This document shows positions 22,712-29,054 of a stretch of DNA of 45,198 bases, piece after piece. Source of the DNA: Natronobacterium haloterrestre. GTDB lineage: Archaea > Halobacteriota > Halobacteria > Halobacteriales > Natrialbaceae. Within the stretch, counting starts at the first letter, position 1; every line of letters begins with the position of its first letter. Where the stretch lies: NCBI RefSeq assembly GCF_900112205.1, contig NZ_FOKW01000016.1:1-45198 (forward strand). Reading direction: 5' to 3'. The position numbers and the translations under genes are program-made. The notes beneath the pieces are model-generated. The model was given only the letters and a program-made list of their open reading frames with translations, had not been told where the DNA came from and made no database searches.

Positions 22712-22870
22712 ACCTGGGGTAGTTAAATCTCGTGGCAGATCGGCCGTTTCGAGGCTGTTTCGTCGGGAACTGCGCTCCTGTTTCGAGTTTCCGTTTCGGT
22801 TCGATACCCGCTCGTCGCCGACCGGGGCGGCTCGGGTCGTCGTCCGTCGGGTACGGGCCGTCGGCACTCG

Positions 22871-22912
22871 CGGCTACGGCGACGCGGCTACGGCGACGCG
22901 GCTACGGCGACG
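22871..22912. repeat. Three 14-bp tandem repeats between genes
   Basis: CGGCTACGGCGACG occurs three times in tandem without mismatch at 22871-22884, 22885-22898 and 22899-22912. It lies between the transducer start and the 3' end of the CheW-like gene, outside coding sequence. It looks like a recent tandem duplication. Confidence 0.9.
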
Positions 22913-22964
22913 CGGGCCGGTGACACGGGCCAGCGACGAGAAGAAACGACGTTCGGTCCCGGCG

Positions 22965-24107
22965 TTACGCGTCCGCCGCCGGCGTGTGCTCGGTCGAGAT
23001 GTTGTCGATGATCTCGTCGACGTCCAGCCACGTGACGAGGGTCGTCTCCCCATCGGTGTTTTTCTTGACGATCCCCTCGACGAACTCGTGTTGGGCGCCG
23101 ACGTCGCCGTCCATCGCGCTGTTGGGGTCGTCGATCTGGGACTCCCGGTAGGTGACCGCCTGGGAGACGTCGGTCACGCGCACGCCGAGTTTCTGCTTGT
23201 CGTCGTCGCGCTCGAGGACGACGATGTAGTGTTCTTCCGAGAGTTCGTTGCGCTCGATATCGAGCATGGCCGTCGGATCGAGGACGCCGGTGATCTCGCC
23301 GCGGAGGTCGGTGACGCCGTCGATCGCGTCGGGGCCGCGGGGGAACCGCGTGATGTCTTTCATCTCGACGATCGCGCTGACCCGGTCGATCTCGATCGCG
23401 TAGCGGCTGTCACGCAGGTAGAACTCGAGCATCTGGATCGTGTCCGCCTGGTTGTGGGTCGAGGCGATCAGCGAGTCGCCCTGCTCGAAGACCTCCTTGC
23501 TGCGGGTAAGCGTCGCGTCGCCGTACCGATCGCCCTCCTGACCGACGGCAGAGGCGTCGACGGTGGCACCGTTCCCGAGGTCAACGTCGCCTCCGATGCC
23601 GGCGATCGCGCCGCGCAAGGCGGGGTCGATCCCCTGTTCGGCGGCTTCCTCGTCGGCGGGGCGTTCGACCATCGCCTCGAGGCCGTCGTCGTCTGCGTCC
23701 GCGACGGCTGGCGTGGGACTGGACTCGGCTTCGGGATCGAGTTCGCCTTCGGTGTCTGCGTCTGCTTTCGTCTCGTCCTCTGCGTCGACGATCTCCGATT
23801 CGTCGTAGGAAACCGTCTCTCCGCCGCTCGAGTCGTCGTTCGTGTCGCCGTCGTCGGTGTCGTTCGTATCGACGTTCGAGTCCGTAGACTCCTCGGAAGT
23901 CTCGGCGTCGTCTCCCCCCTCGGCTGTGGCGTCGCTGGACCCCCCGTCGGTCGCTTCCGGTTCCGAGTCGGCCCTCTCCATCTCGTCAGTCGATTCGGAC
24001 GCCGATTCCTCGTTCGTCCCCGTCTCGTCGCCGGATCCGCCCTCGCCGTCCCCACGACTCGAACGGTTGCGCATCTCCCGGATCCGCCGGGCTCTGTCGT
24101 CGGTCAT
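22965..24107 (-). CDS. CheW-like protein with long disordered N-terminus, coupled to ParA
   Basis: 380 residues from ATG 24107 (MTDDRARRIREMRNRS). Residues 1-16 are strongly basic, followed by about 200 residues of very acidic, Ser/Thr/Glu-rich, probably disordered sequence. The C-terminal ~165 residues are a CheW domain (QMLEFYLRDSRYAIEIDRVS, then GPDAIDGVTDLRGEITGVLD, and KLGVRVTDVSQAV). The start codon overlaps the parA stop in an ATGA arrangement, a sign of coupled translation. The layout matches bacterial ParP (disordered N-terminal part plus CheW-like C-terminal domain), the partner of the ParA-like ParC in polar localisation of chemotaxis arrays. By inference it links the array to the ParA ATPase, with the basic N-terminal peptide as a possible ATPase-stimulating contact. 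It could instead be just a CheW variant. Confidence 0.9.
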   Translation of the reverse strand: MTDDRARRIREMRNRSSRGDGEGGSGDETGTNEESASESTDEMERADSEPEATDGGSSDATAEGGDDAETSEESTDSNVDTNDTDDGDTNDDSSGGETVSYDESEIVDAEDETKADADTEGELDPEAESSPTPAVADADDDGLEAMVERPADEEAAEQGIDPALRGAIAGIGGDVDLGNGATVDASAVGQEGDRYGDATLTRSKEVFEQGDSLIASTHNQADTIQMLEFYLRDSRYAIEIDRVSAIVEMKDITRFPRGPDAIDGVTDLRGEITGVLDPTAMLDIERNELSEEHYIVVLERDDDKQKLGVRVTDVSQAVTYRESQIDDPNSAMDGDVGAQHEFVEGIVKKNTDGETTLVTWLDVDEIIDNISTEHTPAADA

Positions 24108-24922
24108 GCCGATACCTCCAGTCTGGTACTGGTGAGTCGTTCGTCGAGTGTCTCGGCCATCGAAGCGAATACCTCTCGCATGTCGTTTTCCTCCTCGACC
24201 GCGAAGATCGAACTCCCGGCGGAAAACGCCCGCTGGAAGGCCACCCGTTTTCGGACCCGGTAGAGCGGCGTCTCCGGCAGCGCGTCCTCGAACCACTCGA
24301 GCATCTCGTCGGCCGCGTTCGTGTTCTCGATCCGGTTTGCCACGAGCGCCTGCGGTTCGATCTCGACGTCGTGATCCATCTCGAGCGCGCCGACGTAGTC
24401 GAACAGCAACTCGAGCGAGCGCTTGCTCGTGGGCTCGGCCAGCGCCGGAATCACGAGGTTCTGGGCCGCGACCAGCCCGTTGTCGGTTACCGCGCCGAGG
24501 TGTGGGGGACAGTCCACGACGACGAAGTCGTAGTCGACGTCGACGTCGGCGCCGGCGTCGCTCTCGAGCGACGTCAGCAGCCGGTCGAGTCGTAGTTCAG
24601 CGTCGTCCTCGGCGGCCAGCGTCGAGGCGGCGGCGTTCATGTCCACGTTGCTCGCGACGACGTCCATCTCCTCGTGGTCGTAGACGATCTCTTCGCGGGG
24701 GACGCCCTCGGGGTCGACGAGCGCGTCGAGCAGCGTCGGCGGCTCCGCGTCGTAGGCCTCGAGCAGCCCGAGTCCCTCCGTCGCGTTCCCCTGGGGGTCG
24801 AGATCGACGAAGAGTACGTCCCGGCCGCGGTCGTTCAGCGCGCCGGCGAGGTTGATCGCGACGGTCGTCTTTCCGACACCTCCCTTCTGATTTGTCACAC
24901 ACAGCCGAGCGGGTTCCGCCAT
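24104..24922 (-). CDS. parA: ParA-family ATPase
   Basis: 272 residues from ATG 24922 (MAEPARLCVTNQKGGVGKTT). The deviant Walker A KGGVGKTT near residue 14 with both Lys residues, Walker A' DLDPQGNATEGLG and Walker B VVVDCPPHLGAVT are complete, so it should bind ATP and form the sandwich dimer of ParA/MinD proteins. Its 3' end overlaps the CheW-like gene by 4 nt. It lies in a chemotaxis cluster and no parB gene is visible. I infer a role in positioning or segregating the chemosensory array rather than DNA; a chromosome or plasmid partition role is the alternative. The TATA-like GAGTTATGTG lies ~31 nt upstream. Confidence 0.93.
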   Translation of the reverse strand: MAEPARLCVTNQKGGVGKTTVAINLAGALNDRGRDVLFVDLDPQGNATEGLGLLEAYDAEPPTLLDALVDPEGVPREEIVYDHEEMDVVASNVDMNAAASTLAAEDDAELRLDRLLTSLESDAGADVDVDYDFVVVDCPPHLGAVTDNGLVAAQNLVIPALAEPTSKRSLELLFDYVGALEMDHDVEIEPQALVANRIENTNAADEMLEWFEDALPETPLYRVRKRVAFQRAFSAGSSIFAVEEENDMREVFASMAETLDERLTSTRLEVSA

Positions 24923-25030
24923 TCTCTCGTGAGATTTCAACTCTGCCCACATAACTCACACGGCCAACCGACCGCACGACGGCCTCGAGACGGGTTAGGC
25001 GACGGGATTTTGCGGTCCGAAACGATCCGT

Positions 25031-25080
25031 GGGGATCCGAAGTCCTTCGAAATCCTTCGAAGTCCTTCGAAGTTTTCCGA
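25031..25080. repeat. Phased 10-bp repeat array
   Basis: Reading from 25031 there are five 10-bp units: GGGGATCCGA, AGTCCTTCGA, AATCCTTCGA, AGTCCTTCGA, AGTTTTCCGA. Three of the central units share at least 9 of 10 bases with AGTCCTTCGA. The spacing of one helical turn puts all copies on the same DNA face. It lies ~110-160 nt upstream of parA and ~360 nt upstream of cheB, so it could be an operator, or a centromere-like site for a ParA system. Confidence 0.75.
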
Positions 25081-25213
25081 ACCACCGGCGAACGAGTCCC
25101 GCTCCAACCCCGGCGGGGACCCGTCGTCGATCGTCCCCGTCGGTCGACGTCGAACGGACCTCCTCGAGACCGGATTCGCCGTCGTCGGCGGGCGACGTGT
25201 CGAATCGGCCGAA

Positions 25214-25221
25214 TTCTTTAT
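25214..25221 (+). promoter_or_regulatory. TATA-like box upstream of cheB
   Basis: TTCTTTAT lies 26-33 nt upstream of an ATG at 25247 and 220 nt upstream of the cheB start. This suggests the cheBA transcript has a long leader, or a short ORF at its 5' end. Confidence 0.4.
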
Positions 25222-25442
25222 CAGTCGAACATCGCAATTCAGTTCCATGGCAGGGAACGTATCGTCCGCTGAGTATACTGGCGGCCGACCGCGGCGGTCG
25301 CGAAGAGCGCGAACGAGTACCTGACAGCTATGAGCACTATTTTCTCTCCGAAAACCGGACGACGACAGCACCGACGGACCGACGCCGTCGGGCAGGTATC
25401 GAGCGTGATTCACACCCGCGAGCGCCAGTTTCGGTGTCACTG

Positions 25443-26510
25443 ATGGTCAGGGCAGTCATTGCGGACGACTCTGCCGTCATGCGGGAAACGCTCGGCAAGA
25501 TCCTCGAGGACGCCGGAATCGACGTCGTCGCCCGCGCCAAGGACGGGACCGAGGCCGTCGAGCAGATCACCCGCCTCGAGCCGGACGTCGCGACGATCGA
25601 CATCCAGATGCCCGGCCTGACGGGCCACGAGGTGATCGAGCAGGTGATGGCCGAGCGGCCGACGCCGATGCTGGTCATCAGCTCCCAGACGACGAAAAAC
25701 GCCGAGGCGACGTTCGAGGCCCTCGAGGCCGGCGCGGTCGACTTCATCGCGAAACCGAGCGGCGACAACTCCGTCCCGATCTGGTCGAAGCAAGACGAGA
25801 TCGTCGATCAGGTCCGGGCGGTCGCCGCGGCGGACGTCTCCGGATCCGACGCCGGGACGTCACGCTCGACGCGCGAGGAACCCACCACCGTCGACGTCGG
25901 CGCGACAGAGGAGTTCCCGAACGATCCGACGCTCGTCATCGGCGCATCGACCGGCGGCCCGCGGGTCGTCGAACGAGTGCTGTCCGAACTGCCCGAGCGA
26001 GCAGGGTTGCGAATTGTGATAGTTCAACACATGGCTGATCACTACACCGAACGCTTCGCGACGCGTCTCGACGAACGAACCGACTACGAGATCCGAGAAT
26101 CGACCGGCCGCGACACGATCGGCCCCGGGGAGGGCGTCCTGGCGAAGGGCGGCTACCACCTCGAGGTGACGAGCCTCCGGAACGGACGGCTCACCGTCGC
26201 CCACGACGACGGGCCGGAGCGACACAACGTCAAGCCGGCCATCGACGTCACGATGGAGACCGCGGCCGAGACGATCGGCCGGCGGGGCAACCTCGCCGGC
26301 GTCGTCCTCACCGGAATGGGTGCCGACGGCGCGGACGGGCTCGCAGCGATCAAAGATGCCGGCGGCAAGGCCATCGCACAGGACGAATCGACTTCGCGAG
26401 TCTACGGGATGCCCAAGGAGGCCGCGGACCGGGTCGACCTCGACATGGTGTTGCCCAAGGATCGGATCGCTGAGGGCGTCGTCAACGCCTTCCGGGGGTG
26501 GTCCTCGTGA
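25443..26510 (+). CDS. cheB: CheB protein-glutamate methylesterase
   Basis: 355 residues. The N-terminal receiver domain has MVRAVIADDSAVMRE, phospho-acceptor Asp53 in ATIDIQMPG and Lys at FIAKPSG. A ~45-residue linker follows. The C-terminal methylesterase domain has the catalytic triad Ser in GASTGGPR, His in VQHMADHYTERF and Asp in TGMGADGADGL. It deamidates and demethylates transducers in response to CheA phosphorylation. Its stop overlaps the cheA GTG start by 4 nt (GTGA). The start follows TGATG, where a short upstream ORF would end. Confidence 0.96.
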   Translation: MVRAVIADDSAVMRETLGKILEDAGIDVVARAKDGTEAVEQITRLEPDVATIDIQMPGLTGHEVIEQVMAERPTPMLVISSQTTKNAEATFEALEAGAVDFIAKPSGDNSVPIWSKQDEIVDQVRAVAAADVSGSDAGTSRSTREEPTTVDVGATEEFPNDPTLVIGASTGGPRVVERVLSELPERAGLRIVIVQHMADHYTERFATRLDERTDYEIRESTGRDTIGPGEGVLAKGGYHLEVTSLRNGRLTVAHDDGPERHNVKPAIDVTMETAAETIGRRGNLAGVVLTGMGADGADGLAAIKDAGGKAIAQDESTSRVYGMPKEAADRVDLDMVLPKDRIAEGVVNAFRGWSS

Positions 26511-28697: not shown

Positions 28698-29054
28698 ATG
28701 GACGTATTGATCACAGACGATTCCGGGTTCATGCGGGATCTTCTTCGCGAAATCCTCGAGGAAGACCACACCATCGTCGGTGAGGCCGAAAACGGCGTCG
28801 AGGCCGTCGAACTCTATCAGGAAGAGGAGCCGGATATCGTCTTTATGGACATCGTGATGCCGATCAAAGACGGGATCGAGGCGACCGACGAGATCACGGA
28901 TATGGATCCGAACGCGAAGGTCGTCATGTGCACCAGCGTCGAGCAGGCCGAGCAGATGAAAGACTCGATCAAGGCCGGCGCGGAAGGCTACATCACCAAA
29001 CCGTTCCAGAAGGAAAGCGTGCTCGAAGAACTCAACAGCATCGCTGCCGGGTAA
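28698..29054 (+). CDS. cheY: CheY response regulator
   Basis: 118 residues, a single receiver domain. The acidic pair Asp7/Asp8 (LITDDSGFMR), phospho-acceptor Asp51 (VFMDIVMPIKDG), Thr79 (VMCTSVEQ) and Lys101 (YITKPFQK) are all present. Archaeal CheY-P acts on the archaellum motor through CheF. It lies 6 nt before cheC, probably an operon. Confidence 0.97.
   Translation: MDVLITDDSGFMRDLLREILEEDHTIVGEAENGVEAVELYQEEEPDIVFMDIVMPIKDGIEATDEITDMDPNAKVVMCTSVEQAEQMKDSIKAGAEGYITKPFQKESVLEELNSIAAG

Follow-up and report, generated by a model that had tools for sequence, protein, structure and literature searches.

A short tandem array, very probably a neutral minisatellite, between the divergent core promoters of parA and the che operon in Natronobacterium haloterrestre, and a decayed cheY that may lead ribosomes into cheB

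The window analysed here is a stretch of 45,198 nucleotides from Natronobacterium haloterrestre, a haloarchaeon of the family Natrialbaceae (contig NZ_FOKW01000016.1). It contains a chemotaxis and archaellum cluster, in which CheW, CheB, CheA, CheY, CheC/CheX, CheF and archaellum proteins were identified by Pfam. Within this cluster parA, which encodes an AAA_31/CbiA ATPase (24104–24922, minus strand, from the conserved start), and cheB, which encodes a receiver and a methylesterase (25443–26510, plus strand, from the conserved start), are divergently oriented, and the spacer between them holds a 10-bp tandem array (25031–25080, without assigned strand).

A sequence-only reading had described the array as five 10-bp units in exact helical phase, lying outside any gene about 110 nt upstream of parA. 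The array is real, but it is smaller than this. In register, the units beginning at 25031, 25041, 25051, 25061 and 25071 match AGTCCTTCGA at 5, 10, 9, 10 and 7 of 10 positions respectively. The signal is carried by a strong core of three near-identical 10-mers (25041–25070) rather than by five units, and both ends are weak: the unit at 25071 (7/10) is a poor copy and the one at 25031 (5/10) does not rise above the level of a loose match. Tandem Repeats Finder places the repeat at 25038–25073, with a period of 10, 3.6 copies and a score of 65. The helical phase stands, with three TTCGAA at exact 10-bp steps (25046, 25056 and 25066), and so does the distance, 109 nt when parA is taken to start at 24922.

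To compare the array with chance, we shuffled the sequence while keeping its dinucleotides. A period-10 array with a score of at least 50 was obtained in 0 of 2000 shuffles of the spacer and in 0 of 60 shuffles of the window, while a repeat of any period with a score of at least 65 was obtained in 4 of 2000 and 6 of 60 respectively. The array consists of tandem copies of a short unit, more than chance gives. Across the window the unit has 11 matches with one mismatch or fewer, where 6.9 are expected, and the only ones in tandem are the array's own three.

The array lies outside any gene if cheB begins at the conserved start at 25443, but no stop codon interrupts the cheB frame as far upstream as a GTG at 25029. 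It is very improbable that cheB is read from this GTG and that its coding sequence takes in the array, even though the frame runs open from 25029 into cheB, a crude gene caller based on codon composition took the array as coding, and the stop-to-stop frame is long both in the window genome (G000, 503 aa) and in its sister G001 (637 aa). The array comes before the TATA element of the che operon, it contains a 1-nt indel in G001, and what precedes the conserved cheB start in the orthologs is a cheY-like or leader ORF read in another frame. The extension of cheB to 25029 was rejected for these reasons.

A DNA search within the genus shows that the array is inside a lineage-specific spacer (about 24970–25206) that separates the two core promoters. 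Among five genomes of the genus this spacer is common to G000 and G001 only. In G002–G004 the promoter-proximal parts of the interval alone match, and G004 has two weak spacer matches elsewhere (E = 8e-5 and 3e-4). The parA–cheB interval of G004 is identical to that of Halobiforma nitratireducens (L061). We also considered the spacer as a mobile element or dispersed repeat and rejected this, as its best other match in its own genome is 36 bp long (E = 0.0016). A search against plasmids gave nothing convincing (two Rhodococcus plasmid matches of 37–47 bases), and a search against phages gave no match.

The parA core promoter element (GGCCGTGTGAGTTAT, 24951–24965, minus strand) is positioned 29 nt before the parA ATG, and the che core promoter element (GGCCGAATTCTTTAT, 25207–25221, plus strand) is 26 nt before a leaderless ATG. 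A distance of 26–29 nt before the ATG is the spacing of leaderless haloarchaeal promoters. The array is 65 bp from the parA element and 126 bp from the che element, which comes after it. Both elements have GGCCGNNTNNNTTAT in common. This pattern was defined after both sites were seen, and in the 4.5-Mb genome it has exactly two matches, both here; the reversed control also has two, so the count is no more than chance and the positions alone speak for the element. A longer form containing GGCCG, with one mismatch, has 8 matches where the reversed control has 9, and thus shows no genome-wide enrichment. Looser forms of the promoters are present in 27 of 30 distinct loci for parA and in 28 of 30 for che. 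Among the exceptions to the shared letters are GGCCA (L007) and, at several Natrialba loci, GGCCGAACGC; L077 has a variant of the che promoter that was judged by eye. It is possible that the shared GGCCGNNTNNNTTAT is a pathway-specific promoter element. Transcription of parA and che is most likely dependent on the elements at 24951–24965 and 25207–25221 and not on the array. One other candidate was the CsmR motif of Haloferax, given as TATCA-N4-TGATA in the accessible text of PMC13286277; with up to 2 mismatches it occurs at 6 places in the window against 2.4 expected, none of them at either promoter, and it was rejected. One of these CsmR-like places is at 25397, inside the second leader ORF described below.

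To determine how widely the array is distributed we searched 80 relatives for ParA. Matches were found in 77, and 17 loci, including the window, are close, with an identity of at least 67%; cheB is divergently placed beside parA in 16 of the 17. A scan of named genomes gave 18 further close parA loci (L061–L078), for a total of 35, of which 30 are distinct. Five repeat loci already counted: L061, L062, L066 and L078, whose intervals are identical, and L070, which was judged to be the same genome as L017. In the 30-locus parA set L022–L027 were looked at and showed no cheB motif, while L028–L034 were left out, as were the 62 distant loci (L079–L140) of the 80-locus named-genome set. L017 (and L070) has no cheB beside parA, the cheB of its genome (G025) being on another contig (L249). 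In this genome the parA that stands apart from the che operon keeps its promoter element, and the leader frame that overlaps the cheB start is also kept.

Upstream of parA, TTCGAA occurs three times in the window, twice in G001, once in L064 and not at all in the rest of the 35 loci (30 distinct). The only other period-10 repeat at these loci is in L069, with two copies of a different unit. Across 125 genomes of the family, three exact TTCGAA at 10-bp steps are found in one, the window's own. The array has no counterpart in the other orthologous parA–cheB intervals examined, with G001 keeping a remnant that has two TTCGAA. The sequence-only reading had proposed a cooperative operator or a site used by a ParA-type system, and had named the lack of a similar array near orthologous parA genes as the result that would refute it; this lack is what we find among the loci examined, so that neither reading is supported, and even in the sister the array has diverged to 33 of 50 identical positions. 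Repeats beside parA are a feature of plasmid partition loci, and the nearness of these repeats to a parA gene is what would suggest that the ParA-type ATPase is loaded here, at a centromere-like (parS) or other site. The chance of this is slight in the extreme, as the parA in question is within a chemotaxis cluster (cheW, cheB, cheA, cheY, cheC/cheX and cheF), no match to the ParB family was found among 29 window proteins scanned (Pfam, E ≤ 0.001), and the array is in no orthologous parA locus examined beyond G000 and G001.

The spacer is carried by two genomes only, which narrows what their comparison can tell. The array is 33/50 identical between G000 and G001, while its flanks are 460/473 identical (left 107/111, right 353/362; Fisher p = 1.4e-11), and it changes faster than the flanking DNA between these close relatives. 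Over the 50 columns the two sequences differ by 16 substitutions and a single gap of 1 nt, so that in the two genomes compared the lengths are 1 nt apart and the number of units is the same. CGAA is kept in G001 at four homologous positions, 10 bp apart; in this phase 18 of 20 columns are conserved, with a permutation p of 0.029 for a phase that was chosen post hoc.

These four CGAA positions, kept while other bases changed, would fit a lineage-specific cooperative operator, confined to G000 and G001, at which a dimeric regulator would bind CGAA or TTCGAA on one helix face at 10-bp steps and govern parA, the che operon or both. The exact 10-bp spacing and the location between two divergent promoters would fit it too. 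We nevertheless regard such an operator as unlikely. The array is missing from the other orthologous intervals, its region diverges faster than its flanks, and both core promoters are conserved in genomes without the whole spacer. A scan of the genome for a further array, or for another site of a regulon, using three TTCGAA-N4 units with up to 2 mismatches, gave one other place only, and this had two mismatches.

To better understand the origin of the array we examined other tandem arrays in the genome and the family. Of 125 genomes, 13 have four CGAA-N6 units in succession, at 16 places in all (26 overlapping rows); the reversed control has one hit. These places include the array and its G001 counterpart, their units differ, and some are not clear tandem copies, such as those in G111, G123 and G153. 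The two other places in the window genome are 10-bp tandem arrays of 4.3 copies (L150, 1501–1543) and 7.3 copies (L160, 1472–1544). G001 has the 4.3-copy array in an eroded form, about 20 nt shorter, and has 6 nt in place of the 137-nt stretch that holds the 7.3-copy array, with intact flanks. A third case is a 14-bp array of 3.4 perfect copies within the window (22869–22915), which has a transducer gene on one side and cheW on the other. In G001 it lacks exactly two of these units (28 bp), with 18/47 identical positions against 242/262 in its flanks.

A comparison over 400 kb, in which intergenic status is that of a crude ORF caller, gave a similar picture. Identity to G001 is below 80% for 12 of 18 intergenic arrays, compared to 35 of 226 random intergenic segments, and for 21 of 83 coding arrays. 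Where the flanks are at least 93% identical, the proportions below 80% are 7 of 10 intergenic arrays and 4 of 118 controls. Six of the 18 intergenic arrays keep an identity of at least 80%, so not all are unstable. Placement needs both flanks to be located in the other genome, which left 18 of 20 arrays and 226 of 300 controls for G000, and 19 of 25 and 255 of 300 for G001. Arrays discovered in G000 tend to look less perfect elsewhere, an ascertainment bias, and the reverse test with arrays found first in G001 is weaker (7/19 against 24/255, or 3/8 against 5/153 with good flanks).

The sequence-only reading had also allowed that the repeat may be a simple slippage product, and the behaviour of the genome's other arrays, three of which were looked up singly and are contracted, eroded or missing in G001, supports this. 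We hold it highly probable that the array is a short, lineage-specific, neutral intergenic minisatellite derived from slippage or template switching. In the variable spacer that separates the core promoters of parA and che, replication slippage or template switching would have multiplied a 10-bp unit with the palindrome TTCGAA into head-to-tail copies. The presence and rarity of the array, its absence from the other orthologous intervals examined, its fast divergence from G001 and the like instability of other arrays of the genome are direct observations, while its slippage mechanism and its lack of function are what we infer. Two observations go against plain slippage: the change from G001 is by substitution with the number of units unaltered, which is unusual, and CGAA is kept at 10-bp steps. 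Both could come from template switching, with the copies exchanging at the TTCGAA/CGAA they share, or from a binding site confined to this lineage. The case calls for caution, as phased short repeats in haloarchaeal spacers resemble operators and are often unstable between sister species.

On the other side of the spacer, between the che element and cheB, are two short frames. Leader ORF1 (25 aa, 25247–25324, plus strand) is probably a relic of the 5' end of a cheY-like gene. Leader ORF2 (37 aa, 25330–25443, plus strand) begins 5 nt after ORF1, and its stop overlaps the cheB start (TGATG, 25441–25445). To place these frames we compared 31 distinct loci in which cheB is in such an arrangement, a set that includes L249 and L252 (from a CheB search, the promoter being checked in neither) and L077 (judged by eye). 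All 31 have the TGATG/TAATG stop/start overlap at cheB. An intact CheY-like ORF (119 aa) begins at the ATG after the che element in 8, including L077 and L252; in 17, L249 among them, the CheY sequence is gone and a frame of 27–156 aa is open from the corresponding ATG to the stop that overlaps cheB; and in 6, including the window, the first frame ends prematurely and is succeeded by a second. In L064 the leader is 106 aa long and, by eye, CheY-like at both ends, which may mark a gene that is only partly decayed.

Thus 17 of the 23 degenerate loci are open to the overlap. Shuffling with a random frame expects 3.0, and 17 were reached in 0 of 2000 simulations; with the frame as given 9.1 are expected. 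These loci are related, and so the figures overstate the evidence. The 17 open frames suggest a leader retained for translational coupling. In a ParA tree, in which L077 carried no CheY label, the intact-CheY label changes at least three times, with two of the changes forced by well-supported branches, and the cheY-like gene that follows the conserved che promoter has apparently decayed in Natrialbaceae more than once. Among 13 more distant cheB loci (L252–L264), 8 have directly before cheB a CheY that is closer to the window's second CheY, L252 has the other kind of CheY and 4 show none. The second cheY of the window follows cheA (28698–29054). It is also found after cheA in all eight of L223–L228, L230 and L232, and was not found in the 8-kb stretch examined at L220, L221, L229, L231, L233 and L234; the stretch of L222 was too short.

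The remnant of the decayed cheY may lead ribosomes into cheB, the surviving frame, or in the window the two frames 5 nt apart, delivering them to the cheB start. Taken as a whole, the proposal that the protein was lost while the leaderless start and the stop overlap were kept as a ribosome-delivery leader coupled to cheB is one that we favour slightly on the patterns of frames and overlaps. The interval would then offer a natural series of stages in which a gene gives up its protein but keeps its reading frame, and with such a series one could test directly, in an archaeal operon, the demand of a downstream gene for ribosome traffic.

Several known systems can be set beside this locus. Cooperative operators are built of direct repeats in helical phase, and the array shares their exact 10-bp spacing; unlike them it is not in the other orthologous intervals examined, and the genome has no second such array. 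The likeness to parABS loci is in the repeats beside a ParA-type gene, while the differences are that no ParB was found among the 29 window proteins scanned, that parA is in a chemotaxis cluster and that the array is not conserved with parA. In the part of a taxis interaction study that was available (PMC3579733), no mention of ParA was found. The closest likeness of the array is to prokaryotic satellites and minisatellites as described in the available text of PMC6749651, with which it shares a short unit and head-to-tail copies. The threshold of that survey is at least 4 repeats of 10–200 nt, and it describes the satellites of Halobacteria as apparently for the most part segments of genes, with repeats whose lengths are divisible by three. 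By comparison the array is intergenic and, with a 10-bp unit in about 3.6 copies, falls under the threshold. In titles and the opening lines of abstracts, no report of a decayed cheY acting as a leader was found. According to the accessible text of PMC10666635, coupling at stop/start overlaps is established in Haloferax volcanii, and a distance of about 20 nt almost abolishes it. In the putative coupling here the upstream frame differs in being a decayed cheY with no conserved protein content, but the leader shares with the termination-reinitiation of Haloferax volcanii, as given in the accessible parts of PMC10666635 and PMC6728339, the 1-nt overlap of stop and start in TGATG/TAATG.
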